From the NCBI GenBank assembly GCA_025350145.1, contig JANXYH010000102.1:1-64000 (forward strand): a DNA stretch of 64,000 nt, read 5' to 3'. Each line of letters opens with the position of its first letter. Positions within the stretch are counted from its first letter, which is position 1. The stretch is from Burkholderiales bacterium. Its GTDB lineage: Bacteria; Pseudomonadota; Gammaproteobacteria; Burkholderiales; Burkholderiaceae_C. Of this stretch, positions 41,561-57,444 are shown piece after piece. The notes below the pieces were generated by a model. The model was not told the DNA's origin. It was given only the letters and a program-made list of their open reading frames with translations, and ran no database searches. Position numbers and translations under genes: made by a program.

Positions 41561-42058
41561 CTACGTGGCCGTGCCCACCAGCCAATCGAAGGGAACACAC
41601 GCCCAGGATGCGACGGCATAGCTGGCCTTTTGCCTCGGGTCCAGCAGGACGTTGTGGTCCGTCGTGCTGATGACCGATGGCACCCGCAGCCCGCAAACCT
41701 GCCGGCCCGCCGCCACCTCGCGGTCAACCGCTGCGCGGAACTCACCGCCGATACGCTGGGCATTCGGGCCAGCCGGCCGCAGATTCCAGTTCGACGGCAG
41801 GACGATTCCAAGGTCATCCAGGTCGACAACGGTGCCGTCGGGCACCTGGATCGCCGCAATCGTCAGCTCTGACACGGTGTCCCAGCCAGGTCGCGCGGCG
41901 ACTTCGAGAATCGCCAGCGACTGCAGCTCGGAGGTGTAAAGAATCTCGCTGCGCTTGTCGTTGAAGCGCCAGCCATCCCGGGCGACCGAGGCGCGCGAAT
42001 CGAGTGGATCAAACCCGGCACGCGGACGCCGACTGGCGCGAAATACCAGCATCGGCAA
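41561..42058 (-). CDS. RES-domain toxin
   Basis: RES toxins are NAD+-degrading or ADP-ribosylating enzymes of type II toxin-antitoxin systems. The 165-residue product shows the family residues: Arg7 in VFRAS, Tyr41 and Glu52 in LYTSELQSLAILEVAAR, and Ser128 in LRVPSVI. ATG 42058 lies three bases after the antitoxin stop, so the pair is one operon. The domain is complete and probably active. The genes lie in a lower-GC scar beside a pseudogene, consistent with acquisition by transfer. Confidence 0.9.
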   Translation of the reverse strand: MPMLVFRASRRPRAGFDPLDSRASVARDGWRFNDKRSEILYTSELQSLAILEVAARPGWDTVSELTIAAIQVPDGTVVDLDDLGIVLPSNWNLRPAGPNAQRIGGEFRAAVDREVAAGRQVCGLRVPSVISTTDHNVLLDPRQKASYAVASWACVPFDWLVGTAT

Positions 42059-42061
42059 TAT

Positions 42062-42655
42062 TCAGAGCGGCCCGCCCTCGGCCTGTGTGTGCAACTCATT
42101 GAGCACGATGCGCTCGCCGTCAGATGTCTTGATCAAGTCTGCCGGCGTAGCGCCACCGAGCGCGAAATTTCGGGTGTGCATGTAGCTACGGGCGGCGTCG
42201 TAGCTCCCCAGCACGTCGGCAGCCGTCATCGTCGCCCTCGCGGCACGCATCGCCCGCTCGCTTGCGGCTGTGTCGAGGGATCCACCCAGGCGGGACTTGA
42301 TGGTCTTGAAACTCAGGTCGAAGAATTTCTCGGCATCGGCCAGGGTGCTCAAGAACATCGCCGACGAGACCAGCAGCGTCTCGCCGGCCAGGCCGTCCAC
42401 CATGCGCTGGTGGACTTCAATCGGGCTGAGCGGCTCCGCAATGCTCGCGGTCTTGCGCGAAAGCACCGACAGCGTCAAACGCCAGACGCTGGCCAGTTCG
42501 ACCTTATCGAGCTTGCGAACATGGCTTCGCAGCGTCGTGTCGTCGAACAGCGCGATCACCTTGGCGTCGACTGCAGCACGATCAATGTCAAGTGCGGCGT
42601 CCGCAGTGCCAGGACCGCGAGAGATTCGGGTCGAAGCGATGTCGGCAATCGGCAT
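42062..42655 (-). CDS. Xre/ParS-family antitoxin (DUF2384 type)
   Basis: A 197-residue antitoxin partner. It has an N-terminal helical region, then a helix-turn-helix-like part (SFKTIKSRLGGSLDTAASERAMRAARA). The C-terminal DUF2384 stretch includes LGGATPADLIKTSDGERIVLNELHTQAEGG. This is the standard order antitoxin-toxin with RES. The start ATG 42655 is preceded by GGAGT, which is also the arm of a perfect dyad, so binding there would cover promoter and ribosome site. Confidence 0.9.
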   Translation of the reverse strand: MPIADIASTRISRGPGTADAALDIDRAAVDAKVIALFDDTTLRSHVRKLDKVELASVWRLTLSVLSRKTASIAEPLSPIEVHQRMVDGLAGETLLVSSAMFLSTLADAEKFFDLSFKTIKSRLGGSLDTAASERAMRAARATMTAADVLGSYDAARSYMHTRNFALGGATPADLIKTSDGERIVLNELHTQAEGGPL

Positions 42656-42768: not shown

Positions 42769-43674
42769 TCAATTCGGTGATGGGGTGTCAGCGCCTGCGC
42801 TGCTCGCGGGGTCGTAGCGCTGCCCCGCCGCCAGCAATTGCGGCGTGCCGATCAGCCGGTTCAGACCGTCGAAATCGAGCATCTGGGCGGCAAACGCGGC
42901 GGTGCTGCCGTGGCTGCGCAGGCTGGCGTAGTAGGCCTGCAGGGCATGGCCGACGGCGCGCGCCGCGCCGCCCGGGAAGATCACGATCTTGAAGCCGATG
43001 GCGCCGAGTTCGCTGGCGCTGAAGGCAGGCGAGAGGCCACCTTCGACCATGTTGGCCAGCAAGGGCGCGCGGCCGGCAAAGCGGGTGCAGGCGGCGGCCA
43101 TCTGCGCGGGGCTGCGCAGCGCCTCGATGAACAGCGCGTCGACGCCGCAGGCCAGGTAGGCCTCGGCGCGGTCGAGTGCGGCGTCCAGGCCTTCGACCGC
43201 CAGCGCGTCGGTGCGGGCCAGGATCAACGTGCGCTGGCTGGCCCGGGCGTCGAGCGCGGCGCGCAGCTTGCCGCACATCTCGGCGCTGCTGACCACCGAC
43301 TTGCCGCTCAAATGGCCGCAGCGCTTGGGAAAGGTCTGGTCCTCAAGCTGGACCATCGCCGCCCCGGCGCGCTCCAGGCCGCGCACCGTGCGCTGTACGT
43401 TCAGGGCGTTGCCGAAACCGGTGTCGGCGTCGACGATCAGCGGCAGGCTGACCCGTTCGTGGATGTGCGCCAGGCTGTCGGCGACCTCGCTGTAGGTGGT
43501 CAGGCCGATGTCGGAGCGGCCCAGCCGGGTGTAAGCGATGGCCGCGCCCGAGAGGTACAGCGCCTCGAACCCGGCCTGCTCGGCGATCAGCGCCGACAGG
43601 GCGTCGTAGACCCCGGCGGCGAGCAGCGGCTGGGCCGCGGCCAATCGGGCCTTGAGCGGGTTGGGCAGGGTCAT
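42769..43674 (-). CDS. Isocitrate lyase/PEP mutase superfamily C-C lyase
   Basis: A 301-residue (beta/alpha)8 enzyme from ATG 43674. Metal-binding VDADTGFGN and the active-site loop FPKRCGH are intact; Cys119 is the general acid found in isocitrate, methylisocitrate and 2,3-dimethylmalate lyases but absent from PEP mutase and oxaloacetate decarboxylase. It therefore most likely cleaves a 2-hydroxy dicarboxylate into an oxo acid and a carboxylate. It is the final gene of the ten-gene operon, overlapping the flavoprotein stop (ATGA). The exact substrate is inferred only as malate- or isocitrate-like. Confidence 0.88.
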   Translation of the reverse strand: MTLPNPLKARLAAAQPLLAAGVYDALSALIAEQAGFEALYLSGAAIAYTRLGRSDIGLTTYSEVADSLAHIHERVSLPLIVDADTGFGNALNVQRTVRGLERAGAAMVQLEDQTFPKRCGHLSGKSVVSSAEMCGKLRAALDARASQRTLILARTDALAVEGLDAALDRAEAYLACGVDALFIEALRSPAQMAAACTRFAGRAPLLANMVEGGLSPAFSASELGAIGFKIVIFPGGAARAVGHALQAYYASLRSHGSTAAFAAQMLDFDGLNRLIGTPQLLAAGQRYDPASSAGADTPSPN

Positions 43675-45056
43675 GGTTGATTCCCCAGTTGGTTGCGCAC
43701 GCTGCGGGCCGCAATCGCACCGCCGGCCATGGCGCTGAGCAGGCCGTTGCCCGAGAGGTAGCCCCAGACCGCGTTGCCCGACACGCCGCGCGCCGCGCCG
43801 CCGGCGGCCCAGAGGTTGGGCAGGGCGCTGCCGTCGGGCCGCAGCACCCGGCAGTCGGCATCGATGTCCAGCCCGCCCTGGGTATGGAACAGCGCGCCGC
43901 TGACGCGGATGGCGTGCCACGGCGGCGCCAGGCCGCTGCCCGCCAGGGTCTCGGTCAGGGGCGCTGGCGGGCAGCCGATCAGGTCCGCCAGCGCGGCCGC
44001 ATCGGCGGCACTGCGGACCGCCCCGGCGGCCTGCGCGGCGACAAAGTCGGGAAAGCCCTGGCCCAGCGCCAGCAGCGGCGCGTCGAACACCATCCAGGCC
44101 AGCCCGCCGGGCTGGGCCAGCACCTGCACGGCAGCCTCGGAGTAGCCGGCGGTCTCGTCGTGAAATCGCCGGCCCGCGGCATTGACCTGGATGCCGCCGT
44201 TGACCATCAGCGCCCAGGTGATGAGCGCGCCTTGCGGCACCGCCCAGCCGCCATGGCCCTGGTAGCCGCCCAGATCGGCCAGTGCCGCGCCCAACTGCTG
44301 GCCCCAGGTGATGGCCGCGCCGTCGTTGCCGGCGTGGCCGGCGTAGACCGCGTCGACCATCTCGGGCAGGTGCTGGCGGACCATCGCCGGGTTGCCGCCA
44401 AAGCCGTTGCAGGCCAGGATCAGCGCCTGGCAGCCCAGTTGCTCCAGGCTGCCGTCGGGCCGGCGGCAGGCCAGGCCAATCACCCGGTCGGTGCGGTCGC
44501 ACCAGAGTTCTTCCACCCGCGCCTGGGTCAGCACGCTGGCGCCGGCCCGCTCGGCGGCTGCGGCCAGCGCCGCGACCAGGGCCGCGCCGCTGCGCTGCGC
44601 CAGGCTGTGCATGCGGCGGCGGCTGTGGCCGGGGTAGAGAAAACCGTCCAGCAGCTCGAAGTCCAGGCCATGCCGGGCCTGCAGGTCGTCGATCACCCCG
44701 CCTATCGCCCGGCTGTAGGCCGCCACCAGCGCCGGCGCCGCCCGGCCCCTGGCCTTGGCCTGGATCTCTGCGGCGAACCGCTCGGCCGAATCGTCCAGCA
44801 CCCCGGCGGCGGCCTGCACCCGGGTGCAGGCGGCGGGGATGAAGCCCGAGGACAGCGCGGTCGAGCCCTGCGCTTGGGCGTCGCGCTCCAGCAGCAGCGC
44901 CTCTACCCCGGCGTCGCGCAGGCCCAGCGCGGCGACCAGGCCGCAGGCGCCGGCACCGACGATCGCCACCGCCACGGCGGGCGTGCCGGCGGGCATGCAC
45001 TCGGCGCGGACAACCCGGGCTGCGGCCGGCATCAGGCCGTCGGCCGGTGCCGGCAT
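43671..45056 (-). CDS. FAD-dependent dehydrogenase, fumarate reductase flavoprotein type
   Basis: A 461-residue flavoprotein resembling tricarballylate dehydrogenase, fumarate reductase and ketosteroid dehydrogenase. FAD motif VAIVGAGACGLVAALGL is followed by LLERDAQAQGSTALSSGF. A capping domain contains RRFHDETAGYSE, and the C-terminal FAD-binding end reads LWAAGGAARGVSGNAVWGYLSGNGL. ATG 45056 overlaps the amidohydrolase stop (TGATG). It lies in a 24-bp tandem repeat that supplies a second in-frame ATG at 45032. In context it would desaturate a dicarboxylic acid. No signal peptide is seen. Confidence 0.87.
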   Translation of the reverse strand: MPAPADGLMPAAARVVRAECMPAGTPAVAVAIVGAGACGLVAALGLRDAGVEALLLERDAQAQGSTALSSGFIPAACTRVQAAAGVLDDSAERFAAEIQAKARGRAAPALVAAYSRAIGGVIDDLQARHGLDFELLDGFLYPGHSRRRMHSLAQRSGAALVAALAAAAERAGASVLTQARVEELWCDRTDRVIGLACRRPDGSLEQLGCQALILACNGFGGNPAMVRQHLPEMVDAVYAGHAGNDGAAITWGQQLGAALADLGGYQGHGGWAVPQGALITWALMVNGGIQVNAAGRRFHDETAGYSEAAVQVLAQPGGLAWMVFDAPLLALGQGFPDFVAAQAAGAVRSAADAAALADLIGCPPAPLTETLAGSGLAPPWHAIRVSGALFHTQGGLDIDADCRVLRPDGSALPNLWAAGGAARGVSGNAVWGYLSGNGLLSAMAGGAIAARSVRNQLGNQP

Positions 45057-45072
45057 CAGGCCGTCGGCCGGT
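45025..45072 (-). repeat. 24-bp tandem duplication at a stop/start junction
   Basis: Two perfect copies (45025-45048 and 45049-45072) span the amidohydrolase stop and flavoprotein start. In the flavoprotein frame each unit encodes eight residues of the type PADGLMPA. Each copy contains a TGATG, so the duplication creates two possible flavoprotein starts. Confidence 0.9.
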
Positions 45073-46528
45073 GCAGGTACTGGCCGCGCGGTTTGCCGAT
45101 GATCCGCCCGCCTTCGTGCACCAGCATGCCGCGCAGGAAGGTGGCGTCGACCCGGGCCGACAATTCCAGCCCCTCGAACGGGGTGTAACCCTGGGTCGAC
45201 GGCGAATCCTTGGCGGCAATCGTCCAGGTTTTGGCCGGGTCGACCAGCGCGATGTCGGCGTCGAAACCCTCGGCGAGGTCGCCCTTTTGGTTCAGGCCAA
45301 AGCGCTGCGCGGGGTTCCAACTGGTGACCCGCGCGATCTGGTTGAAGGCCATCCCGCGTTTCATGCCTTCGCTCACCAGGGCCGGCAGCAGATATTCTGT
45401 GCCGCCGAACCCGCTCTTCGCCATCCAGATATTTCCGAAATAATGTTTTGGAACCTTCGTCTCGTGCCGGCAGCAGGCATGGTCGCTGACCACCCAATCC
45501 ACTTCGCCGGCCAGCAGCGCCTGCCACAGGTATTCGACATCGGCGCGCGGCCGGATCGGCGGATTGACTTTCGCCAACTCGCCCGCCGGGCTCGTGATGT
45601 CGAGCATCAAATGGCCGATCGTGACCTCGCGGCGGAAATCGATGTGGGGAAAAGTTTCGGCCATCATCAGCGCCGCCTGCAGCGCCTTGCGCGACGACAG
45701 GTGGAGCAGGTTGATGTTCGGCAGGGCGGTTTCGTGGGCGAGGTAGCTGGCGATGAACACAGCCAGCCCTTCGGAGTGCGGTGGCCGCGACGCGCTGTAC
45801 GCCGCGAGGCCCTGCAGCGATTTGTCGCGGGCCACCCTGTGGGTATAGGCGGTCATGATCTCGGCGGTTTCGCAGTGGAGCGACAGCGAGATCTGCGCGG
45901 CCCGCTCCGGGAAGCGCTCGCGGGCCGCCTGGACGCCACGCATGACAAACTCGAAATGGGCGTAGTCGTAGCGCTCGTCGGCGCCTATCATGAGAAATTC
46001 GCGCTGCGCGTCGCTGGCCCCGTGGAGACCATGCGAGCCGTAGAACATGAATATCTTGAAGCTCGCCACGCCGTGCTTTTCAATCAACTCCGGGATTTCG
46101 TCGATGTGCTCCCCGTTCATCGGCGCAAGGTGGTAGCCGTAATCGACATGGAAGCGTTTTTGGCTCAGCTTCAATACTTTTGGAAAAAATTTTGCATATG
46201 GCCCGCCCTGGTTCAGGTAATACTGGCCGGTGCGGAAGTAGTTGAGGCTGGAGGTGACCCCGCCGAGTGCCGCCGCCTGGCTCTCGCTGACCGCGTCTTC
46301 GGCCAGCGGGGCGTAGATGCCGGCGTGCATGTGGGCGTCGACCACGCCCGGAAACGCCAATCGGCCGGCACCGTCATAGACCTGCTTGGCCAGCGCCACA
46401 TCGATGCCCGGCGCGACCCGGGCGATCTTGCCGCCGCTGACCGCGATGTCGGCCTCGTGGACCACGTTGCCATGCGGGCGCACCACCCGCACGCGCTTGA
46501 GCAGCAGGTCGAATGCAGGGGCGGTCAT
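45056..46528 (-). CDS. Hydantoinase/dihydropyrimidinase-type amidohydrolase
   Basis: A 490-residue cyclic amidase. Metal ligands are all visible: HxH in DAHMHAG, the carbamylatable Lys in SFKIFMFYGSHG, His in LHCETAE, His in NLLHLSS and Asp in VVSDHACC. Such enzymes open hydantoin, dihydropyrimidine, allantoin or enamide rings. It overlaps the LeuD-like gene upstream (ATGA) and the flavoprotein downstream. Context suggests it yields an acid that is then dehydrogenated, hydrated and cleaved. Enamidase of nicotinate fermentation belongs to this superfamily, a useful comparison but not an assignment. Confidence 0.9.
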   Translation of the reverse strand: MTAPAFDLLLKRVRVVRPHGNVVHEADIAVSGGKIARVAPGIDVALAKQVYDGAGRLAFPGVVDAHMHAGIYAPLAEDAVSESQAAALGGVTSSLNYFRTGQYYLNQGGPYAKFFPKVLKLSQKRFHVDYGYHLAPMNGEHIDEIPELIEKHGVASFKIFMFYGSHGLHGASDAQREFLMIGADERYDYAHFEFVMRGVQAARERFPERAAQISLSLHCETAEIMTAYTHRVARDKSLQGLAAYSASRPPHSEGLAVFIASYLAHETALPNINLLHLSSRKALQAALMMAETFPHIDFRREVTIGHLMLDITSPAGELAKVNPPIRPRADVEYLWQALLAGEVDWVVSDHACCRHETKVPKHYFGNIWMAKSGFGGTEYLLPALVSEGMKRGMAFNQIARVTSWNPAQRFGLNQKGDLAEGFDADIALVDPAKTWTIAAKDSPSTQGYTPFEGLELSARVDATFLRGMLVHEGGRIIGKPRGQYLHRPTA

Positions 46529-47136
46529 CGGCGCTTCTCCGGGTGCGGGTTGGCAAGTTTGGAAGTCTGGCGCTTGAGCAGCGGCAACAGGCCGCCGGCA
46601 TCGACCATGTCGAGCAAGAAGCCGGGGATGGGCTCGCAGGCCAGCCTGCGGCCGTCGGCCAGGCCGATGCGGCCGGCGCGGGCGTCGATGGTGATGGCCT
46701 GGCCCTCGCCGATCTCATCGGCCTGCGGGCAGGTCAGCAGCAGCAAGCCGACGTTGAAGGCATTGCGGAAATACAGCCCGGCAAAGCCCGGCGCGATCAC
46801 CGCCGCCAGCCCCAGGTAGACCAGGGCGCTGGCGGCCTGCTCGCGCGACGAGCCGATGCCGAAGTCGGCGCCGGCCACGATCCAGTCGCCGCGCTGCACG
46901 CCTGCGGCAAAGTCCGGCCGCAGGCTGTGCAGGCACTGCGCGGCGGTGACGGCGATGCCGTGCTGCATGGTCGGGCCGGGCGCCAGTTGGTCGGTGTCGA
47001 CGTCGGCCGGCAGGCGCCAGACGCGGTTGCCGCGCGGCGTGGCGGGGGTGCGCCGCGCCAGCAATCGCCCGGCGGGCGTGGTCAGGGGCGCGGCGGGCGT
47101 GGTCAGCGGCGCCGCCGCAGATCCGTCGCGGCTCAT
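46525..47136 (-). CDS. Aconitase-family hydratase small subunit (LeuD-like)
   Basis: A 203-residue swivel-domain subunit. The N-terminal 30 residues carry a short repeat (two LTTPA units). The body shows DVDTDQLAPG and the substrate-binding GSSREQAASALVYLGLAAVIAPGFAG, then LYFRNAFNVGLLLL. It overlaps the large-subunit stop (TGATG) and the amidohydrolase start (ATGA). With the large subunit it makes an isopropylmalate-isomerase/homoaconitase-type enzyme. Placement between an importer and degradative enzymes argues against leucine synthesis. Confidence 0.88.
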   Translation of the reverse strand: MSRDGSAAAPLTTPAAPLTTPAGRLLARRTPATPRGNRVWRLPADVDTDQLAPGPTMQHGIAVTAAQCLHSLRPDFAAGVQRGDWIVAGADFGIGSSREQAASALVYLGLAAVIAPGFAGLYFRNAFNVGLLLLTCPQADEIGEGQAITIDARAGRIGLADGRRLACEPIPGFLLDMVDAGGLLPLLKRQTSKLANPHPEKRR

Positions 47137-48431
47137 CAAAGCAGCTCGCGGGCGTCGCAGATCGCCCCGCGCAGGGCCGAGGCGGCGACGGTGTAGGGTG
47201 AGCCGAGGTAGACCTGGGCGGTGTCGGCGCCCATCCGGCCCTTGAAGTTGCGCGCGGTCGACGAGACCACGGTCGCGCCCTCGGCGATCCGGCTGCCGTA
47301 GCCGGCACAGGCGCCGCAACTGCTGGGCAGGACGCTGGCGCCGGCCTCGACCAACTGGGCGAGCACGATCTGGCCGCGGGCTGAGGTCGCCTCGCGCACG
47401 CTGGCCGGCGCGACCAGCAGTTGCACGCCGCGGGCGATGCGCCGTCCGGCCAGCACCCGGGCGGCGGCCTCCAGGTCGTCGAGCTTGGCACCGGTGCAGG
47501 CGCCGAGGTAGGCGATGTCGATGGGGGTGTGGGGCAGGGCGTCGACGGCGCAGACATTGGCCGGGCTGTGCGGCCTGGCCACCTGCGGCGCCAGCCTGGC
47601 GGCGTCGAAACTGTGGCGGCTGCCGGCGGCGCCGCTGTCGCTGTGCCAGGGCTGGGTTTGGAAGCTGGCCGCGCCATGGCCGTGCAGCCAGCCGGCGGTG
47701 GTCGCGTCGGGGGCGATCAGCCCGGCCTGGGCGCCCAACTCGGCGCTCATGTTGCACAGCGTCATGCGCTCGGCCATTGACAACGCCGTCACTGCCTCGC
47801 CGCAGAACTCCAGCGCGCCGTACTGGCCGCCGTTCATGCCATGTTGGCCGAGCATGTGCAGCACCATGTCCTTGGCGGTCACGCCCTCGGCCAGCCGGCC
47901 GCGCCAGTCCATGAAGATCGTCTGCGGCACCTTCAGCCAGATCTCGCCGCGCACCACCACGCCGAGCATCTCGGTGGCGCCGATGCCGAACATGAAGGCG
48001 CCGAACGCCCCGCCGGTCGGCGAATGCGAATCGCCGCCGACGCAGAACATGCCCGGCCGGATGTGGCCATGCTGGGGCACGACCACATGGCAGATCCCCT
48101 GGCTGTCGTAGACATGCGGCAGGCCCTGCGCGGCGGCGAATTCGCGGGCGATGCGCACGATCTGGCGCGAGGCTGCGTCGGCCTCGGGCACGTAGTGGTC
48201 GATCACCAGCACGACCTTGCGCTTGTCCCAGATGGTGGCGCCGAGTTCGGCCAGCATCGGTTGCAGCCGGCGCGGGCCGCCGGAGTCGTGGAACATCGCC
48301 AGATCGACCTTGCAGGTGACGATCTCGCCCGGCTTGACCTGGGAGCGGCCGGCGGCGCGGGCGATCAGCTTCTGCGCCAGCGTGGCGGGGGCGAAGGGCC
48401 AGTTCGAGTTCATCAGCGCCGCAGTGTGCAC
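47136..48431 (-). CDS. Aconitase-family hydratase large subunit (LeuC-like)
   Basis: A 431-residue [4Fe-4S] subunit. The start is taken at GTG 48431; ATG 48413 (MNSNWPFAPATLAQK) is an alternative. Motifs are GGDSHSPTGGAFGAFMFGIGATE, the first cluster Cys in LGACTGAKLDD and the CxxC in SSCGACAGYGS. It adds or removes water from a hydroxy dicarboxylic acid. Relatives with split subunits include LeuCD, homoaconitase and dimethylmaleate hydratase DmdAB. It starts three bases after the livF stop, so it belongs to the liv operon. Confidence 0.9.
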   Translation of the reverse strand: MHTAALMNSNWPFAPATLAQKLIARAAGRSQVKPGEIVTCKVDLAMFHDSGGPRRLQPMLAELGATIWDKRKVVLVIDHYVPEADAASRQIVRIAREFAAAQGLPHVYDSQGICHVVVPQHGHIRPGMFCVGGDSHSPTGGAFGAFMFGIGATEMLGVVVRGEIWLKVPQTIFMDWRGRLAEGVTAKDMVLHMLGQHGMNGGQYGALEFCGEAVTALSMAERMTLCNMSAELGAQAGLIAPDATTAGWLHGHGAASFQTQPWHSDSGAAGSRHSFDAARLAPQVARPHSPANVCAVDALPHTPIDIAYLGACTGAKLDDLEAAARVLAGRRIARGVQLLVAPASVREATSARGQIVLAQLVEAGASVLPSSCGACAGYGSRIAEGATVVSSTARNFKGRMGADTAQVYLGSPYTVAASALRGAICDARELL

Positions 48432-48434
48432 CCG

Positions 48435-49148
48435 TCACAGGCCGAGGTAGGCCTGCCGCAGGCTGTCGCTGGCCAACAGCTCGGCCGGCCTGCCGCTGAA
48501 GCGGATGCTGCCGTTTTCCATCACATAGGCCCGGTCGGCGATCTCCAGCGACTGGGCCACGTTCTGCTCGACCAGGAGCAGCGCCAGGCCATCGCGGTGG
48601 AGCCGCTGGATCAGCGCGAACAGCTCCTCGACCAGCAGCGGCGACAACCCCAGCGAGGGTTCGTCGAGGATCAGCAGCCGCGGCTCGGCCATCAGCCCGC
48701 GGCCAATCGCCAGCATCTGCTGCTCGCCGCCGCTGAGCGAGCCGGCCAGTTGCGCCCGGCGCTGCGCCAGCCTGGGGAAGGTGGCGAAGGCCTGGTCGAG
48801 GTTGCGTCCGCGCCTGGCCTGGGCTCGGGCATGGCTGCCGAGCAGCAGGTTGTCGAGCACGCTCAGATTGGGAAATATCCTGCGCCCCTCGGGCACCTGG
48901 ATCAGGCCGGCGCGGACGATCTCGCGGTAGTGCAGGCGGCTGATCTCGCGGCCATCGAAGCGGATCTGGCCCGACCAGGCCGGCACGATCCCGCAGACGG
49001 TGTTGTTCAGCGTCGATTTGCCGGCGCCGTTGCTGCCCAGCAGGGCGACGATCTCGCCGGGCCCGACCTGCAGGTCGATGCCGCGCAGCACCTGGCTGCG
49101 GCCATGGCCGCCGTGCAGCGCCTGGATGGCCAGCAGCGCAGTGGTCAT
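48435..49148 (-). CDS. livF: Branched-chain-type ABC transporter ATPase LivF
   Basis: A 237-residue ATPase. Walker A GSNGAGKST, signature LSGGEQQ, Walker B LLILDEPSLGL and the H-loop region are present, and GLIQVPEGRRIFPNLSV is typical of LivF. ATG 49148 overlaps the livG stop. Together with LivG it powers import through LivHM. The operon's enzymes suggest an amide or dicarboxylate-like substrate instead of leucine. Confidence 0.95.
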   Translation of the reverse strand: MTTALLAIQALHGGHGRSQVLRGIDLQVGPGEIVALLGSNGAGKSTLNNTVCGIVPAWSGQIRFDGREISRLHYREIVRAGLIQVPEGRRIFPNLSVLDNLLLGSHARAQARRGRNLDQAFATFPRLAQRRAQLAGSLSGGEQQMLAIGRGLMAEPRLLILDEPSLGLSPLLVEELFALIQRLHRDGLALLLVEQNVAQSLEIADRAYVMENGSIRFSGRPAELLASDSLRQAYLGL

Positions 49149-49918
49149 CTCGGTGACCTGCGGTTCAGCCGCGCGGCCGTGCCCCGGCCGAGGTAGGCCT
49201 CGATCACCCGCTCATCGCGCGTCACCTGCTCCGGCGTGCCGCTGGCGATCAGCTCGCCCTGGGCCAGCACCCAGACCTGCCCGGCGAGGTGCATCACCGC
49301 CTGCATCACATGCTCGATCATCAGCACCGTGACGCCGCTGTCGGCGATGCCACGCACCACCGGCAGCATCTCGGCGATCTCCTGCGGGTTCAGGCCGGCC
49401 AGAACCTCGTCGAGCAGCAGCAGCTTAGGGCTGGTGGCCAGCGCCCGGGCCAGCTCCAGCCGCTTGCGGCCGGCCACGGTCAGCTCACCGGCGGGCTGCT
49501 CCAGCAGCGCCCCCAGGCCGACCCGCTGCGCCACGCCTTCAGCCGCGGCCAGCGCCGCCTGGCGCTCGGCCAGGCGCAGGTGGGCGCCGACGGCGATGTT
49601 CTCGCGCACCGTCTGGGCGGCAAAGGGCTGGACGATCTGGAAGGTCCGCGCCAGCCCGGCGCGGGCATTGCGGTGCGGCGCCTGGCCGGTGATGTCGCGG
49701 CCGTCGAAATGCACCCGCCCGCTGTCGGGCCTGAGAAAGCCCGACATCAGGGCAAACAGGGTGGTCTTGCCGGCGCCGTTGGGGCCGATCAGCGCGCTCA
49801 GGCTGCCGGCCGGCACCGTCAGGCTGACGTTATGCACCGCGCGCAGACCGCCAAAGGCGATGCCGACGCCGTCCAGCCGCAGCAGCGGTTGCTGTGGCTG
49901 TGGGGCCGTGTCAGCCAC
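49145..49918 (-). CDS. livG: Branched-chain-type ABC transporter ATPase LivG
   Basis: A 257-residue ATPase started at GTG 49918, where GTGGCTGA overlaps the livM stop; an earlier ATG at 49954 is possible. Walker A IGPNGAGKTT and Walker B LLLLDEVLAGLNP are present. The signature region reads LTVAGRKRLELARAL, the LivG-type variant lacking the classic LSGGQ. GLARTFQIVQPF is a LivG hallmark. The C-terminus matches the family. Confidence 0.94.
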   Translation of the reverse strand: MADTAPQPQQPLLRLDGVGIAFGGLRAVHNVSLTVPAGSLSALIGPNGAGKTTLFALMSGFLRPDSGRVHFDGRDITGQAPHRNARAGLARTFQIVQPFAAQTVRENIAVGAHLRLAERQAALAAAEGVAQRVGLGALLEQPAGELTVAGRKRLELARALATSPKLLLLDEVLAGLNPQEIAEMLPVVRGIADSGVTVLMIEHVMQAVMHLAGQVWVLAQGELIASGTPEQVTRDERVIEAYLGRGTAARLNRRSPR

Positions 49919-50870
49919 GGCCGCGCCAGACTTCGGCCAGGCGCTGGCCGGCACCGGCCAGGCCGCGCGGCAGGAACAGCACGATCAGCACCAGCACGCT
50001 GCCATAGACCACCATGTTCAGCCCCGGCAACTGGCCGAACAGGTTGCGCGTGGCCTCGGCCAGCAGGTGCAGCAGCGCTGCGCCCAGGAGTGGCCCCCAG
50101 AGCGTGCCCAGGCCGCCGACGATGGCCGCGACCAGCGCCTCGACCGAGCTGGCCGGGCCGAAAGCGATGCCCGGGTCGATGTACTGGAACACCTGGGCGT
50201 AGAACGCCCCGCCACCGCCCATCAGCGCAGCCGAGAGCGTGATCGCGCCGAGCTTGACCGCGAACGGGTTGACGCCGACGGCCCGCGCCGCGTCCTCGTT
50301 GTCGCGCACCGCCTGGAGTTGCGCGCCGAAGCGCGAATGCCGCAGCCAGGCGCAGACCAGCAGCGCCAGCAGCAGCAGCGCCAGGGCCAGGCCGACGAAG
50401 CCGGCGCGTGACTCGAACTGCAGGTTGGCTGCGGCCGGGCGCAGTGGCAGCATCAAGCCCACCCCGGCACCGGTGAATGCCACCGACACCGCAGCGATGC
50501 GCAGCAACTCGGCGAAGGCCAGCGTCACCAGGGCGAAGTACGAGCCCTTGAGGCCGTAGCGAAAGCTCAGGGCACCGACCGCCGCGCCCATCGCCGCAGC
50601 CGCCAGCGCCGCCAGCCCCAGCGCCAGCCAGGCGTTGACGCCGCCGGCCGTCTGCGCCAGCACCTGGACATAGGCGCCGCTGCCGAAGAACAGGGCGTGG
50701 CCGAACGAGAACTGGCCACCGAAGCCGGCCAGGATGTTCCAGGCACTGGCCAGCAGTGCCACGTACAGCGTCATCATCAGCAGGTTGAGCCAGACGCCGG
50801 AGCCGCTGAGCGCGGCGGCGGCGGCGACGGCCAGGGCGAAGGCGGCGATGGCCGCCAGATCGCGCCTCAT
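49911..50870 (-). CDS. livM: Branched-chain-type ABC transporter permease LivM
   Basis: A 319-residue inner-membrane permease from ATG 50870 (MRRDLAAIAAF), which overlaps the livH stop; the frame continues upstream without meaning. Nine or so hydrophobic helices are seen. Family stretches are WNILAGFGGQFSFGHALFFGSGAY, RYGLKGSYFALVTLAFAE, QAVRDNEDAARAVGVN and ALVAAIVGGLGTLWGPLLGA. Confidence 0.94.
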   Translation of the reverse strand: MRRDLAAIAAFALAVAAAAALSGSGVWLNLLMMTLYVALLASAWNILAGFGGQFSFGHALFFGSGAYVQVLAQTAGGVNAWLALGLAALAAAAMGAAVGALSFRYGLKGSYFALVTLAFAELLRIAAVSVAFTGAGVGLMLPLRPAAANLQFESRAGFVGLALALLLLALLVCAWLRHSRFGAQLQAVRDNEDAARAVGVNPFAVKLGAITLSAALMGGGGAFYAQVFQYIDPGIAFGPASSVEALVAAIVGGLGTLWGPLLGAALLHLLAEATRNLFGQLPGLNMVVYGSVLVLIVLFLPRGLAGAGQRLAEVWRGRG

Positions 50871-51754
50871 CCCCGGGCCCCGAACAGGCCGGTGGGCCGG
50901 AACAGCAGCACCACGATGAAAATCGCGAAGATGCCGATCTGGCCCAGCGACTCGCCCAGCAGCAGCCCGCCCAGCGACTCGACCACACCGATCAGCAGGC
51001 CGCCCAGCAGCGCCCCGGCAAAGCTGCCCATGCCGCCGAGCACGACGATAGTGAAGGCCACCAGCACGAAGCCGCCACCGACCTGCGGGTTGACGTAGTA
51101 GGCCGGCAGCAGGAAGCAGGCGGCCGCGCCCAGACAGGCAAAGCCCAGGCCGAAGCTGACGGCGTAGACATGGTCGACATCGATGCCCATCAGCTTGGCG
51201 CCGTGCTTTTCCTTGGCCACCGCGCGGATCGCCCGGCCCAGGTCGGTGCGGTTCACCGCCCAGAGCATCGCCGCGCTGCACGCCAGGGCGCCGGCGAAGG
51301 CGATCAGCTTGGGCAGGGCGATCATCGCCGGGCCGAAGCTGTCGGGGCCGATCTGCACGGTCTTCAAGGTGTAGGCGGTGTCGATACTGCGGGTGTCGCT
51401 CTTGAACAGCAGCAGCGCCAGGTTCTCCAGCACGATCGCCAGGCCCAGCGTCACCAGCAGGATGTTCTCGTCCTTGCCGTGGCTGGCGCGGTTGATGACC
51501 AGGCGCTGCAGGGCATAGCCGAGTGCGTACATCCCGGGCACCACCGGGAGCAGCGCCAGATACGGGTCCAAACCGAACTGGGCATGCAGGAAGTAGACCG
51601 CGTACAGCGCCACCATCAACGCCGCGCCATGGGCGAAATTGATGATGTGCAGGACGCCATAGATCAGCGTCAGGCCGAGCGCGATCAGGGCGTAGACCGC
51701 GCCCGTGGTCAGGCCATTGAGGACCGACGGGAAGAGGATGCCGAGTTCAGCCAC
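50867..51754 (-). CDS. livH: Branched-chain-type ABC transporter permease LivH
   Basis: A 295-residue permease with eight hydrophobic helices. Motifs are NGLTTGAVYALIALGLTLIYGVLHIINFAHG, RAVAKEKHGAKLMGID and FTIVVLGGMGSFAGALLGGLLIG. It starts at GTG 51754 in GTGGCTGA, overlapping the livK stop by eight bases, the same junction sequence as livM/livG. Confidence 0.94.
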   Translation of the reverse strand: MAELGILFPSVLNGLTTGAVYALIALGLTLIYGVLHIINFAHGAALMVALYAVYFLHAQFGLDPYLALLPVVPGMYALGYALQRLVINRASHGKDENILLVTLGLAIVLENLALLLFKSDTRSIDTAYTLKTVQIGPDSFGPAMIALPKLIAFAGALACSAAMLWAVNRTDLGRAIRAVAKEKHGAKLMGIDVDHVYAVSFGLGFACLGAAACFLLPAYYVNPQVGGGFVLVAFTIVVLGGMGSFAGALLGGLLIGVVESLGGLLLGESLGQIGIFAIFIVVLLFRPTGLFGARG

Positions 51755-52946
51755 GCAGCGGAAAAATCGGCTCGGCCTCGCGGTACTCGCGCGGCACGAT
51801 CACCCGGATGTCGCCCTGTATCACCTGCGTCATCAGCGGCTGGGCGCCGGTGTTCTGGCCGTTCTCGAAGCGGGTCGTGCCGTAGGGCATGAAGTGGTCG
51901 GCGAACTTGCTGTTGGCCAGCGCCTCGGTGATCGCACCGCGGTCGGCACTCTTGGCGCGGCCGATCGCGTCGGCCAGCAGCCGCACCGCGGTGTAGGTGT
52001 TGAAGACCTCGTAGGTGAAGTACAGGCCCTTGGCCTCGACCCGTTTGCGCAGCGCGGCGGCGCGCTTGTCCTTGGGGTTGAACCAGTGGTTGCAGTCGAT
52101 GATGCCGTTGGCAGCGTCGGGAAATTCCTTCAAGAACTTGTAGCTCGACGCCGCGCCGCCCAGCACCGAGTAAATCGCCTTGGGCTGGAACTTCTGCTGC
52201 TGCATCGTCCGCACCAGCAGGGCGTACTCGTTGAAGTAGTTGGCCGGGATCACGATGTCGGGGTTGACCGCCTTCATCCGCAGCACGATGTTGTTGAAGT
52301 CGCGGGTCGGGTTGGCGTGCTTGAGCACCTCCTTGACCTCGAAGCCGTAGCCCGGCAGCTCGCGCGCCAGCAGCGCCGCCGTGCCGCTGCCGAACAGGCT
52401 CTCCTCGTGGATGATCATCACGCTCTTGGCGGGCTTGCCGGCGAGGGTGTTGAGGACATGCAGGTTGCTGACAGCGACCTGGGCGCAGGCCTTGTAGCCG
52501 GGGCCGAAGCGGAAGGTGTTCTTCAGGCCGCGCTCGACGATCTGGTCGGCCACGCCGACGTCGACGACGTGCGGCAGGTTGTACTTGGCCGCCGCCTGGG
52601 TCGTCGCCAGGCAGATCGCCGAGGCGTAGGCACCGACGATTGCCGAGCAGCCGGCCTCGTTCATGCGCTCGACCTCGGCGGCGCCGGCCTGCGGCGTGCT
52701 CTGGGCGTCGCCGAGCACGACCTCCAGCTTGGCCCCGCCCATGGTCGCGATGCCGCTGGCGTTGATGTCCTCGATCGCCAGCAGCGCGCCCTCGCGGCAC
52801 TGCTGGCCGGAGAACGCCAGCGCGCCCGTGACCGGGTGCAGGATGCCGACCTTGATGGTCTTGGGCTGGGCCCCGCCGACCAAGGGAAAGGCCAGCGCCG
52901 CAGCGGCGGCCGATTGCTGGGCGATGAAGTGGCGGCGGTTGCGCAT
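51747..52946 (-). CDS. livK: Branched-chain-type ABC transporter substrate-binding protein
   Basis: A 399-residue periplasmic binding protein from ATG 52946 (MRNRRHFIAQQ), with an RR-containing, Tat-like signal and cleavage near GGAQP. The fold is of the amide/urea-binding FmdD/UrtA-LivK group: IKVGILHPVTGALAFSGQQCREGALLAIEDIN, GAYASAICLATTQAAAKYNLPHVVD and NHWFNPKD. It is the first gene of the ten-gene operon and is divergent from the HSL esterase gene, with 153 bp of shared upstream DNA. That sequence group often binds small amides, fitting the downstream amidohydrolase. Confidence 0.93.
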   Translation of the reverse strand: MRNRRHFIAQQSAAAAALAFPLVGGAQPKTIKVGILHPVTGALAFSGQQCREGALLAIEDINASGIATMGGAKLEVVLGDAQSTPQAGAAEVERMNEAGCSAIVGAYASAICLATTQAAAKYNLPHVVDVGVADQIVERGLKNTFRFGPGYKACAQVAVSNLHVLNTLAGKPAKSVMIIHEESLFGSGTAALLARELPGYGFEVKEVLKHANPTRDFNNIVLRMKAVNPDIVIPANYFNEYALLVRTMQQQKFQPKAIYSVLGGAASSYKFLKEFPDAANGIIDCNHWFNPKDKRAAALRKRVEAKGLYFTYEVFNTYTAVRLLADAIGRAKSADRGAITEALANSKFADHFMPYGTTRFENGQNTGAQPLMTQVIQGDIRVIVPREYREAEPIFPLRG

Positions 52947-53099: not shown

Positions 53100-54074
53100 A
53101 TGCTGAGCCAACACCCGCCCAGCGGCATCGCCGAGGCCATCACCGCCCTGGTTTTGCGCCGGCTGCTGCAGACCCTGCTCAAGCCGGTGTTCTCGCCGCG
53201 CCGCAGCATCGCCCTGCAACGCCGCTGGCTGGCGGCACTGTCGCGCCTGAATCGGCTGCCACGCGCTGCGGTGCTGCAGGCCGGGGTGGTTGGCGGGGTT
53301 GCCGGCGAGTGGTCGCGACCGAGCGCGGCGGGCGCTGCCAGCGGCGCCGAGGCCGGCCAATGGCTGTACCTGCACGGCGGCGCCTACTGCATCGGCTCGC
53401 CGCGCAGCCACCGCAATCTCGGCACCCGGCTGGCGCTGGGCAGCGGCATGGCCTTGTTCATGCCCGACTACCGGCTCGCGCCCGAGGCGCCGTTTCCGGC
53501 GGCGCTGGACGACGTGCTGGCGGTCTACCGCGTGATGGCGGCCCAGGGGCCGGTGGTCGTGGCCGGTGATTCGGCCGGCGGCGGGCTGGCCTTGGCGCTG
53601 GCCCTGGCGGCGCGCGAGGCCGGCCTGCCCGCGCCAGCGGCGCTGGTCTTGCTCTCGCCCTGGGCCGACATGGTGCTCGATGGCCAGGCGCCCACGCCAC
53701 CGCCGGGCGAGGCCATGCTCAGCCTGGCCTGGGCGCAGGCCTGCGCGGCGCACTACCTGGGCCGGGACACGCCGCCCAGCCACCCCTGGGCCTCGCCGTT
53801 GCGAGCCGACCTGCGCGGCCTGCCGCCTACCCTGATCCAGGCCGGCACCGACGAAATGCTGCACGACCAGGCGCTGGCGCTGCACGCGGCGCTGGTGGCG
53901 GCCGGGGTAGCGGCGCAGTGCCAGATCACGCCGCGGCGCTGGCATGTCTTCCAGCTCCATGCCGGCAGCCTGGCCTCGGCCGACGCGGCGCTGGCGCGGA
54001 TGCTGGCCTTCGTCCGGGCGCTGCAACCGGCCGGGCCGCTGTCCGCGGCAGTACCGGCGGCGGTGGCCTCCTGA
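53100..54074 (+). CDS. Alpha/beta hydrolase, hormone-sensitive lipase (HSL) family
   Basis: A 324-residue esterase from ATG 53100. The oxyanion-hole motif appears as YLHGGAYCIGS, slightly divergent from HGGG. The nucleophile elbow is GDSAGGG; the Asp is in AGTDEMLHD and the His in RWHVFQLHAG. YRLAPEAPFPAALDD is the family signature. It would hydrolyse short or medium acyl esters. It lies 40 bases upstream of the first cyclase gene on the same strand, so it may be the first gene of that cluster. Confidence 0.93.
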   Translation: MLSQHPPSGIAEAITALVLRRLLQTLLKPVFSPRRSIALQRRWLAALSRLNRLPRAAVLQAGVVGGVAGEWSRPSAAGAASGAEAGQWLYLHGGAYCIGSPRSHRNLGTRLALGSGMALFMPDYRLAPEAPFPAALDDVLAVYRVMAAQGPVVVAGDSAGGGLALALALAAREAGLPAPAALVLLSPWADMVLDGQAPTPPPGEAMLSLAWAQACAAHYLGRDTPPSHPWASPLRADLRGLPPTLIQAGTDEMLHDQALALHAALVAAGVAAQCQITPRRWHVFQLHAGSLASADAALARMLAFVRALQPAGPLSAAVPAAVAS

Positions 54075-54114
54075 GATCGTGGCCACAACCACAACGCTGC
54101 TGGAGGCCGCCGCC

Positions 54115-57100
54115 GTGAGTGCCACCCCACCCGCCTCGGTGCCGGCCTGGCTGGATTCGCTGGGGCTGGCGCAGTACGCCGCCGGCTTCGAGCAGCAGGC
54201 GATTGCCCTGCACATGCTGCCGGAGTTGGGCGAGGCCGAGTTCCAGCAACTCGGGGTCAAGCCGCTGGGCCACCGGATCAAGCTGATGCAGGCCGCAGCG
54301 GCGCTGCGGTCGGCCGCGCCAGTCGCCGCCGCCGCCGCCCCGCGCGCTGCCCCGGCGGTCGCCGAGCGCCGCCAACTGACCGTGCTGTGCTGCGACATGG
54401 TCGGCTCGACAGCGCTGTCGCAGCGGCTGGATCCGGAGGACCTGCGCGCCCTGTTGCAGGCCTACCGGCAGGTCTGCGCCGAGGTGGTGGCGCGCCACCA
54501 GGGCATGGTCGCGCAGTACCTGGGCGACGGCCTGACGGTGTACTTCGGCCTGCCCCGGGCGCATGAGGACGACGCCCGGCGCGCGGTCGCCTGCGGCCTG
54601 CAACTGCTCGACGCGGTCAAGTCGATTGCCGCGCCCGAGCCGCTGCGGCTGCGGGTGGCGGTTGCCACCGGTGCGGTGGTGGTGGGCGCCGATGTCGGCG
54701 ACGGCGACGCCAGCCGGCCGCCGATGGCGGTGGGCCAGACCCCGACCCTGGCGGCGCAGTTGCAGCGCCATGCCGACCCCGACCAGGTGCTGGTCGCGAT
54801 CGGCACCCACCGCCTGCTGGGCGGACGCTTCGAATGCCTGGACCTGGGCGCACAGGCCCTGCCCGGGATTGCCGTGCCGCAGCGCTTGTGGCGGGTGCTG
54901 CGCGAGAGCCGGGCGGCCGACGACCACTTTGCCGCCGCCCATGCCGGCGCTCTGACGCCGCTGGTCAACCGCAGCCTCGAGATGTCGCTGCTGATGGACC
55001 GCTGGGCGCGGGCCTGCGACGGCCAGGGCCAGGTGGTGCTGCTGGCGGGTGAGGCGGGCATCGGCAAGAGCCGGGTGCTGGCCGAGTTGTGCCAGCGCGT
55101 GCCTGCCGGCAGCTTGCTGCTGCGCCTGCAGTGCTCGGGGCTGCACAGCAACTCGGCCTTCTATCCCATCACGTTGCAGATGCAGCGCGCCGCAGGGATA
55201 GAGCGCGCTGATCTGCCCGAGCAACGCCTGGACAAGCTGGAGGCGCTGCTGCAGCGCCTGGGCCCGCAGGCGCGGCACCATGCCCGCCAGTACGCGGCCC
55301 TGCTGTCGCTGCCGCTGGACCGCTATCCGGCGCTGCCGACCAGCCCGGCCAAGTCCCGGCAGGAGACGATTGCCGCCGTCATCAACAACATCCTCGATGT
55401 CGCCAGCCGGCAACCGGTGCTGGTGCTGGCCGAGGACCTGCATTGGATGGACCCCTCGTCGCTGGAGGCGCTGGACGCGCTGATCGGGGGCATGCGCCAG
55501 GCGCCGGTGCTGTTGCTGCTGACCGCCCGAGACCTGCTGGGCGGACGCTGGGCGGCGCAACCCCATGCCACTTCGCTGACCATGGTCGGCCTGAGCCGCA
55601 GCGACAGCCGGCGCCTGGTCTCGGCGCTGGCGCAGTCGCAGGCGCTGTCTGAGCTGGTCCTTGATCGCATCGTCGGCCGTGCCGACGGCGTACCGCTGGC
55701 GCTGGAGGAACTGACCCGGGCGCTGGCCGAGGCCGCCGACGCGCGCTCAGGCGCAGACGCCGAGTCAATCCAGATCCCGGCCACGCTGCAAGACTCGCTG
55801 ACGGCCCGGCTCGACCAGTTGGCGGGCGCCCGCCGCGCGGTCCAGTTGGGCGCGGTGCTGGGACGGCAGTTCCCGCTGGCGCTGGTCCAGGCACTGCATG
55901 GCGACGACCGCAGCGCGGCGGCGCTGGCGGCCGAGTTGGACCTGGCGGTGGCCGCCGGCCTGCTCAGCCGCAGCGGCAGCGCTGACGATCCGCACTACGG
56001 CTTTCACCACGCCCTGGTCCATGACGCGGCCTATGAAAGCCTGCTCAAGCGCGACCGCCGGGCCCTGCATGTGCGGGCCGCTGGCCTGCTCAAGGCCCAG
56101 ACCGGCGACGATGCCGCGCCCGAGCTGCTGGCCCGCCACTACACCGCCGGCCAGGCCTGGGCCGAGGCGGCGCAGTGCTGGCGCCAGGCCGGCCAGCGTG
56201 CCTCGGCAGCGGGCGCGGCCAAGGAGGCGATTGCGCACCTGGAGGCCGGCGTCGCGGCCGTCGCCCAGGTCCAAGACCCGGCCCGGCGCGACGAGCTCGA
56301 ACTGGCGCTGCAGGCGGCGCTGGGTGCGGTGTACTTTGCCGCTGTCAGCTACGCCGCGCCGCAGGCGCAGGCGGCCTACCAGCGCGCCGAGGCGCTGTGC
56401 GAGCACGTCGCCGACGGCGCGCTGAAGGCCCCGGTGCTCTTCGGCGTGGGCACGTTCCAGACCATGAAGGGCGACATCCGCGCCGGCCACCGCAGCTTCC
56501 AGCGCCTGGGTGCGGTGGCCGAGGCCGCCGCCGCACCGCGGCTGCAGCTCTATGCCAGCACGGTGTTGACCTGGTCGCATTGCCTGATCGGCCAGTACCC
56601 GCAGGCGATCGCCGCCTCGGACCGGGTGTACGCGCTCTGCCAGGCCGGCACGCCGCTGCTGCCGCGCATGGGCGCAACCGATCCGCGCATCCTCAGCGGG
56701 TACTTCCGCGCCGCCGCGCAGTGGGCGCTGGGCCAGGTCGACGATGCCAGCGCGACCAGCGATGGCGTGCTCACCCTGGCCCGCACGCTCGACCGCTACA
56801 GCCTGGCCTATGCCCTCAACACCGCCAGCGTGCTGGTGCCGGCACTCTGTGGCGACGATGCCACCGTCTGTGCCCGCTGCGAGGAAGGCGTGGCCCTGGC
56901 GCGGGCGCTGGGCTACCCGTTCCTGGCGATCGCCGGTCAGGCCCGCCTGAGCTTGGCGCAACGCCAGGCCAGCGGTCCGGCCCCTGCGCTGGCGGCGATC
57001 GACTCCGCACTGGCCAGCCTGGGCGCAATGGGCGTGGGTTACATGCGCTGCCGCTACCTGAGCTGGCGCAGCGAGCTGCTGCTGGCCTTGGGTGATACCG

Positions 57101-57444
57101 GCGCCGCGCAACTGGCGGCGACGCAGGCACAGGACGCGCTGGCGGTGTCGGGCGAAACGTCTCAGGCCATCGAGGTCGGCCTGGCCCTGGGCCGGGTGCA
57201 GCTCGCCCAGGGCGGCGCGCAGCGGGCGCAGGCCGGGTTGACCTTGCGCAGCGCGCTGGCGACGGCGCAGGGCGCGCCCTCCTGGCAGTTGCGCGCCGCC
57301 CTGGCGCTGGCCCCGCTGGTCGCCGAGGACGACGGCCCGGCCGCCGCCGCGGCGCTGCTGGCGCCTTTGCTCGCCGGACTGGCCCAAGGCCGGCACAGCG
57401 CCGACCAGCGCCAGGCGGCAGCGCTGCTGGCGCAGTGGCGCTGA
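54115..57444 (+). CDS. SAM - class III cyclase - AAA - TPR signalling protein, cyclase degenerate
   Basis: A 1109-residue protein from GTG 54115, chosen because GGAGG lies eight bases upstream and the N-terminus then matches its paralogue. Domains: SAM (about 9-65), class III nucleotide cyclase (about 83-250), AAA/STAND ATPase (P-loop GEAGIGKS at 312-319, Walker B VLAEDLHWMD) and a TPR-like tail (about 600-1109). Metal Asp94 and Asp138 are kept, but the transition-state Asn-x3-Arg is Thr211-x3-Gln215, so cyclase activity is probably lost. It could be a regulatory partner of the intact paralogue downstream. Confidence 0.9.
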   Translation: MSATPPASVPAWLDSLGLAQYAAGFEQQAIALHMLPELGEAEFQQLGVKPLGHRIKLMQAAAALRSAAPVAAAAAPRAAPAVAERRQLTVLCCDMVGSTALSQRLDPEDLRALLQAYRQVCAEVVARHQGMVAQYLGDGLTVYFGLPRAHEDDARRAVACGLQLLDAVKSIAAPEPLRLRVAVATGAVVVGADVGDGDASRPPMAVGQTPTLAAQLQRHADPDQVLVAIGTHRLLGGRFECLDLGAQALPGIAVPQRLWRVLRESRAADDHFAAAHAGALTPLVNRSLEMSLLMDRWARACDGQGQVVLLAGEAGIGKSRVLAELCQRVPAGSLLLRLQCSGLHSNSAFYPITLQMQRAAGIERADLPEQRLDKLEALLQRLGPQARHHARQYAALLSLPLDRYPALPTSPAKSRQETIAAVINNILDVASRQPVLVLAEDLHWMDPSSLEALDALIGGMRQAPVLLLLTARDLLGGRWAAQPHATSLTMVGLSRSDSRRLVSALAQSQALSELVLDRIVGRADGVPLALEELTRALAEAADARSGADAESIQIPATLQDSLTARLDQLAGARRAVQLGAVLGRQFPLALVQALHGDDRSAAALAAELDLAVAAGLLSRSGSADDPHYGFHHALVHDAAYESLLKRDRRALHVRAAGLLKAQTGDDAAPELLARHYTAGQAWAEAAQCWRQAGQRASAAGAAKEAIAHLEAGVAAVAQVQDPARRDELELALQAALGAVYFAAVSYAAPQAQAAYQRAEALCEHVADGALKAPVLFGVGTFQTMKGDIRAGHRSFQRLGAVAEAAAAPRLQLYASTVLTWSHCLIGQYPQAIAASDRVYALCQAGTPLLPRMGATDPRILSGYFRAAAQWALGQVDDASATSDGVLTLARTLDRYSLAYALNTASVLVPALCGDDATVCARCEEGVALARALGYPFLAIAGQARLSLAQRQASGPAPALAAIDSALASLGAMGVGYMRCRYLSWRSELLLALGDTGAAQLAATQAQDALAVSGETSQAIEVGLALGRVQLAQGGAQRAQAGLTLRSALATAQGAPSWQLRAALALAPLVAEDDGPAAAAALLAPLLAGLAQGRHSADQRQAAALLAQWR

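Follow-up and report, generated by a model that had tools for sequence, protein, structure and literature searches.

The ten genes at positions 42769-52946 (minus strand) of the window, by which we mean the whole 64,000-nucleotide stretch of contig JANXYH010000102.1 of a Burkholderiales bacterium that was analysed, form a real and conserved catabolic cassette built from known enzyme families, and with a probability of about 55% this operon serves to degrade a small cyclic imide or a cyclic amide close to it. All ten open reading frames (ORFs) proved to be open in a check of frames and junctions. From 5' to 3' they encode LivK, LivH, LivM, LivG and LivF, followed by a LeuC-like protein, a LeuD-like protein, an amidohydrolase (AH), a flavin adenine dinucleotide (FAD) protein and a lyase. 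The nine junctions from LivK to the lyase measure -8, -4, -44, -4, +3, -1, -4, -1 and -4 bases; eight of them are overlaps (1 to 44 bases) and the single 3-base gap separates LivF from the LeuC-like gene, which bears out the overlapping ten-gene operon claimed in an earlier sequence-only reading of this DNA. GC content at the third codon position is 0.84-0.95 across the ten ORFs. Pfam and NCBIfam placed each of the ten proteins in the broad family given by that reading (LivKHMGF, LeuCD-like, amidohydrolase, lyase and the rest). None of the five enzymes reached an equivalog cut-off among the NCBIfam models listed, and the subfamily cut-offs were passed only by the LeuC-like (PRK00402, hacA_fam) and LeuD-like (LeuD/DmdB family) proteins.

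A scan of 84,980 species genomes returned 222 relatives of AH, and the best 80 (63-86% identical) were analysed. Layouts and neighbour counts were obtained by tblastn, with matches below 35-50% query coverage left out of the layouts and the neighbourhood defined as 9 kb around AH, many contigs being short. LeuC was found in 50, LeuD in 52, the FAD protein in 48, the lyase in 42 and a Liv gene in 43 of these 80 loci; the 48 include a match in L119 (26% identity) that is probably unrelated. Wherever all four enzyme partners are present, the set LeuC-LeuD-AH-FAD-lyase keeps the order and strand of the window (33 of 33 loci), and a Liv gene accompanies it in 29 of them. Between LivF and LeuC, where the window has only its short gap, a TctC-type receptor is encoded in 17 of the 34 AH loci with both genes. 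Among 398 other genomes of the family Burkholderiaceae, an AH ortholog (77-84% identity) is present in 15, a lyase ortholog (E <= 1e-85) in 46, besides the window genome, and all 15 genomes with the former contain the latter (hypergeometric P ~1e-15, kinship ignored). The linkage of the five enzymes is not a matter of chance. The AH ortholog was registered in none of 20 genomes of the same genus, some of them incomplete (best match E 1e-28, 31% identity), and in 398 genomes of the phylum one AH-ortholog genome recurs, the other non-self matches being 30-35% identical. The best 80 relatives belong to Burkholderiales, Gammaproteobacteria, Actinomycetota, Bacteroidota and other taxa, and this patchy distribution suggests transfer or loss.

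Comparison of loci centered on the lyase revealed a second regularity. Outside the window genome the lyase occupies 53 places, of which 40 were examined; the remaining 13 belong to genomes that have an AH ortholog. Of the 40 places, 37 came from genomes without this ortholog and three from genomes with it, one of the three being the AH operon itself, and five plasmid loci were additionally read from their annotation. The slot between LeuD and the FAD-lyase pair contains AH in 33 distinct loci including the window (34 rows, L056 and L182 denoting a single locus). The sister layout LeuD-HyuB-HyuA-isochorismatase-FAD-lyase was found in exact form in 10 loci, to which variant or cut Hyu layouts are added by L139, L142, L145 and L150. 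Other lyase loci are arranged as LeuD-FAD-lyase (6 loci, FAD present), as TctC plus LeuD-lyase with neither a FAD match nor an opener (9 loci), as TctC-lyase with no FAD match (10 loci) or with a set of luciferase-type oxidoreductase, also with no FAD match (2 loci). Loci with TctC, LeuCD and lyase lacking both the opener and the FAD protein are to be expected if the acid itself is imported. In Burkholderia plantarii LeuCD, FAD protein and lyase are linked to two polysaccharide-deacetylase/PuuE-like proteins and an isochorismatase; homologs of this isochorismatase and of two PuuE-like proteins (53-65% identical) are encoded in each of two gammaproteobacterial AH loci, together with a further PuuE-like protein only 34-35% identical to the B. 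plantarii set, and L178 combines a PuuE-like protein with LeuCD, FAD, Liv and lyase. Three unrelated opener types, AH, HyuAB and the PuuE-like pair, are tied to the LeuCD/FAD/lyase core. Among the 46 genomes with the lyase, 15 have AH and 12 a lyase-linked Hyu set, with an overlap of 0 versus 3.9 expected (P 0.004, kinship ignored), the disjunction being partly built in, since most genomes have one such locus. On the lyase tree (88 rows) the AH label changes 12 times and the Hyu label 7 times, at least 5 and at least 4 of these changes being forced by well-supported branches; 18 of the 85 inner branches are open and the bootstrap is not fully settled. Judged by this tree, the opener slot has been exchanged repeatedly, and it can be argued on this ground that AH and HyuAB-isochorismatase supply intermediates of a single kind. 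Replacement of the opener by unrelated enzymes offers a comparative handle on the substrate. L143 and L173, belonging to a Variovorax plasmid and a family genome, have lyase and LeuCD next to a luciferase-type oxidoreductase, a short-chain dehydrogenase/reductase, an isochorismatase and a flavin reductase, a set that may open the ring oxidatively ahead of this core.

Substitution is not confined to the opener. An MmgE/PrpD protein is encoded beside AH in 11 loci, actinobacterial by record titles, where a cyclase-family hydrolase was found in 10 and a class III coenzyme A (CoA) transferase with a CoA-ester lyase in 7. On the Rhodococcus plasmid L043 all four are encoded beside AH, and the same stretch also contains FAD, HyuA, HyuB and an amidase. 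LeuCD and class III CoA transferase adjoin AH in two loci of Bacteroidota (L118, L119) and one of proteobacteria (L113); L119 encodes a protein scoring above the subfamily cut-off for 3-hydroxy-3-methylglutaryl-CoA lyase, and L113 its homolog. In these gene contents the actinobacterial and the LeuCD/CoA-transferase loci share one logic, in which a C-C lyase comes after a hydratase or an isomerase; the enzymes are swapped, and CoA activation may or may not be included. The gammaproteobacterial locus L107 encodes isochorismatase, polysaccharide-deacetylase/PuuE-like proteins and an arylmalonate-decarboxylase-family protein, L109 has their homologs, and no pair of hydratase/isomerase and C-C lyase was seen in either.

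From the above we infer the substrate class and the order of steps as follows. LivKHMGF would import the cyclic imide or amide, AH, acting as a binuclear-metal cyclic amidohydrolase, would open the ring, and the amide nitrogen would then be freed by a hydrolase encoded outside the operon. Either before the ring is opened or afterwards, the flavoprotein would introduce or adjust a C=C bond adjacent to a carbonyl; the LeuCD-like pair would hydrate the resulting cis-alkene diacid to a hydroxy diacid of malate type, and the lyase would split the latter into a 2-oxo acid and a carboxylate. Such a scheme of import, opening, hydration and cleavage is supported by the swapping of analogous enzymes at several steps in related clusters. 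As to the substrate, a cyclic imide appears to fit best and a lactam or hydantoin second. The proposed route resembles imidase/half-amidase catabolism in that an imide would be opened and its amide then hydrolyzed to a diacid, and in that PuuE-like proteins occur in linked clusters; it differs in the opener (AH or HyuAB) and in the dedicated hydratase and lyase to which the diacid would pass. According to PMC9304392, HxnM and HxnN of Aspergillus nidulans open an imide and then hydrolyze the amide to yield a diacid. The imidase of the two, HxnM, shares 64% identity with a P. putida cyclic imide hydrolase homolog, and both are relatives of PuuE, HxnM by its structure. Several observations weigh against the imide scheme. 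Ten of the 80 AH loci have none of the searched partners; in five of these the contig stops no more than 3.4 kb away to one side. The FAD protein occurs without AH or HyuAB in six type-C loci and in L178, which means that it is not strictly tied to these openers. A Rieske ring-hydroxylating oxygenase (alpha and beta subunits, L106:2597-4320) upstream of lyase and AH on one betaproteobacterial contig and a luciferase-type monooxygenase by AH in the single locus L099 may point to other substrates. For HyuAB of L139 the top-scoring models are those of caprolactamase subunits, under cut-off, which would also fit a lactam. Finally, the window operon has no gene for a half-amidase, whereas Hyu-type operons carry isochorismatase, and the single isochorismatase-family match in the window genome is unlinked to the operon.

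The last two points count in favor of a possible, though doubtful, alternative, in which AH would act on a lactam, hydantoin or ureide instead; the opened product would bear an enamine or N-carbamoyl group, and AH would need no separate half-amidase beside it. HyuAB together with an isochorismatase-family hydrolase is also the layout of N-methylhydantoin degradation. AH itself (45056-46528, minus strand) is the putative ring opener and has the allantoinase/hydantoinase fold. Its ligands H66, H68, K158, H218, H276 and D349 are invariant in 35 of 35 rows and match the binuclear-metal residue set of allantoinase and its kin (EcALLase) given in PMC9863593, where imidase is counted within the hydantoinase family. 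The protein scored under the cut-off of each of the 25 listed of 55 NCBIfam models, and the top score, belonging to the allantoinase model, agrees with the lactam/hydantoin alternative. Among the best 50 of 1511 Foldseek rows, the closest structures to its AlphaFold model (mean predicted local distance difference test score, pLDDT, of 90) are allantoinases, hydantoinases and dihydropyrimidinases. Two arguments speak against a lactam or hydantoin. The PuuE-like pair of the linked clusters is akin to known cyclic imidases at the level of the family, and Tyr163 of AH stands, by its offset from the metal-bridging lysine, at the place of hydantoinase Tyr155 and E. coli allantoinase Thr151, within a loop modelled with low confidence (residues 164-168 below 50). 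Tandem AH genes, 70% and 39% identical to that of the window, were noticed in L100:9983-13571.

The FAD-dependent dehydrogenase-like flavoprotein (43671-45056, minus strand; FAD_binding_2, 152 bits) scored under the cut-offs of the 25 listed of 40 NCBIfam models. The nearest structures to its model (pLDDT 90) are urocanate reductase and flavocytochrome c3; dehydrogenases of ketosteroids and cyclohexanone rank lower. In the alignment with flavocytochrome c3, H365, T377 and H505 are retained, and E378, R381, R402, H504 and R544, residues with catalytic roles in that enzyme (the first three are named in PDB titles), are replaced by W281, M284, Y305, F390 and Y433; of these, all but M284 stay the same throughout 30 rows. 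With five catalytic residues replaced the protein is not a canonical fumarate reductase, and this identity was rejected. Of the chemistry proposed in the sequence-only reading, import, cyclic-amide opening, hydration and C-C cleavage are supported and the desaturation of fumarate-reductase type is not. The flavoprotein shares the FAD_binding_2 fold with TcuA, flavocytochrome c and KstD, and differs from them in the missed model cut-offs and the five substitutions. The tyrosines at its sites presumably resemble those of ketosteroid dehydrogenases, which desaturate next to a carbonyl, and by this analogy it is plausible that the FAD step would take place on the imide ring or half-amide as probably as on the free diacid. 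Through a 24-base direct repeat (45027-45074, minus strand) the FAD gene has its start region in two copies, and it may begin at ATG 45056 or ATG 45032, identical 18 bases preceding both.

Within the imide scheme one particular substrate deserves mention as an unlikely but specific proposal: by analogy, the cassette might mineralise the maleimides in which chlorophyll and heme end up, for example hematinic acid. Opened hematinic acid would be 2-methyl-cis-homoaconitate, its hydration by a homoaconitase-like LeuCD and cleavage of methylisocitrate-lyase type would give pyruvate and glutarate, and the saturated ring-D analogue would enter by way of the flavoprotein. If so, bacteria would have in this operon a sink for tetrapyrrole fragments, of which no description was found in the titles and abstract openings searched. 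PMC7318184 reports that the chlorophyll products of leaves include hematinic acid. For senescent leaves and lake sediments it cites the occurrence of maleimides as well as of hematinic acid; its own study detected no maleimides.

The lyase (42769-43674, minus strand) belongs to the isocitrate lyase (ICL)/PEP-mutase superfamily and contains the FPKRCGH motif noted previously. The loop K121-R-C-G-H125 and equivalents of D58, D85, D87, E115 and R158 are retained; the KRCGH loop and the aspartates have catalytic roles in lyases of this superfamily. The prpB model gave 286 bits against an equivalog cut-off of 354, and the specificity loop reads NMVEGG (invariant in 40 type-A rows) instead of NITEFG in E. 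coli PrpB, so that identity with PrpB of the methylcitrate cycle was discarded. The cassette resembles the 2-methylcitrate cycle in an aconitase-type step followed by KRCGH lyase chemistry and departs from it in the missed cut-off, the changed loop and the lack of a methylcitrate synthase in the operon. The same superfamily includes 2,3-dimethylmalate lyase, and the sequence-only reading had drawn a parallel to the nicotinate fermentation of Eubacterium barkeri. In an aerobic relative of that route, a nicotinate-derived lactam would be opened and converted through dimethylmaleate to dimethylmalate. The fermentation employs enamidase, DmdAB and dimethylmalate lyase, and by pathway description the operon shares with it ring opening by an amidohydrolase, hydration of an alkene diacid by an aconitase-family enzyme and C-C cleavage by an ICL-family lyase. 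The subfamily assignment of the LeuD-like protein to LeuD/DmdB is in line with this. We nevertheless regard such a pathway as improbable. Against PDB entries the lyase scores 204 bits with PrpB structures versus 153 bits with 3fa3, which we take to be the fungal 2,3-dimethylmalate lyase. AH is hydantoinase/allantoinase-like, and no enamidase is present among the best 50 of 1511 Foldseek rows or the best 60 of 90 phmmer rows, so that the parallel holds in its broad reaction types and close kinship to enamidase is not supported (the enamidase step is treated in PMC9304392). The operon further differs by the added flavoprotein and import through an ABC system. In six annotated related loci no feature is named nicotinate hydroxylase or 6-hydroxynicotinate reductase.

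The LeuC-like large subunit (47136-48431, minus strand; aconitase family), a putative hydratase of a cis-alkene diacid, scores 499 bits with PRK00402 (cut-off 385), and the LeuD-like small subunit (46525-47136, minus strand) scores 134.6 bits with TIGR02087 (cut-off 108.95), the LeuD/DmdB-type subfamily. The hallmarks of the aconitase family are intact here, namely three Fe-S cysteines (ACTGAK and CGAC in the LeuC-like protein) and, in the small subunit, the GSSRE motif (GSSREQ in the LeuD-like protein). Automatic naming of related records, for example as 3-isopropylmalate dehydratase, suggests an operon for leucine biosynthesis and branched-chain amino acid uptake that carries the other enzymes as passengers. 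This view was dismissed as most improbable, since the LeuC-like protein gives 203 bits with the true-leuC model TIGR00170 (cut-off 560), a true LeuC with 747 bits is encoded near asd on contig C36 of the same assembly (4.56 Mb, 98% complete), and the linkage of five enzymes is conserved. Given this separate LeuC, leucine synthesis has no need of the window pair, which on its model scores is not the leucine enzyme. The finding that would have refuted the sequence-only reading on this point, a true leucine LeuCD with no second copy in the genome, therefore does not apply. A lysine in the LeuD recognition loop, considered as a sign of tricarboxylate substrates, was dropped: type-A rows have MK or MQ, and the genome's own LeuD likewise has lysine there. 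The same genome encodes AcnB on C103 and isocitrate lyase on C197. Two further LeuCD-like sets were noticed on contigs C158 (L133), adjoining another PrpB-like lyase and a TctC receptor, and C4 (L135), adjoining an MmgE/PrpD-like protein; these are possibly other hydratase-lyase cassettes.

No description of a cluster like that of the window, nor of a link of such a cluster to dimethylmaleate or tetrapyrroles, was found in titles and abstract openings, subscription papers being mostly outside this survey. Cassette genes are currently annotated as 3-isopropylmalate dehydratase, dihydroorotase-family protein and isocitrate lyase/PEP mutase family protein. If the imide or amide reading holds, interchangeable genes across several phyla would constitute a family of cassettes through which cyclic imides or amides are degraded, and re-annotation would touch many environmental genomes.

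The transport half of the operon consists of a LivK-like periplasmic binding protein of 399 amino acids (51747-52946; Peripla_BP_6, 157 bits), which did not reach the LivK equivalog cut-off of NCBIfam, a LivH-like permease starting with GTG in an 8-base overlap (50867-51754; BPD_transp_2), a LivM-like permease (49911-50870; BPD_transp_2), a LivG-like ATPase (49145-49954; ABC_tran and BCA_ABC_TP_C) and a LivF-like ATPase (48435-49148; ABC_tran), for which LivF was the top NCBIfam model with 235 bits, under cut-off; all five are on the minus strand. A promoter scan of the operon registered none, against 0.7 expected by shuffling, an uninformative outcome. Just downstream of the operon (41561-42655, minus strand) lie genes for a RES-domain protein and an Xre/MbcA/ParS-type antitoxin, which is the usual composition of a toxin-antitoxin pair. 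Upstream of LivK (53100-57444, plus strand) there are a divergent gene for an alpha/beta hydrolase and one for a SAM-domain guanylate-cyclase/AAA protein.

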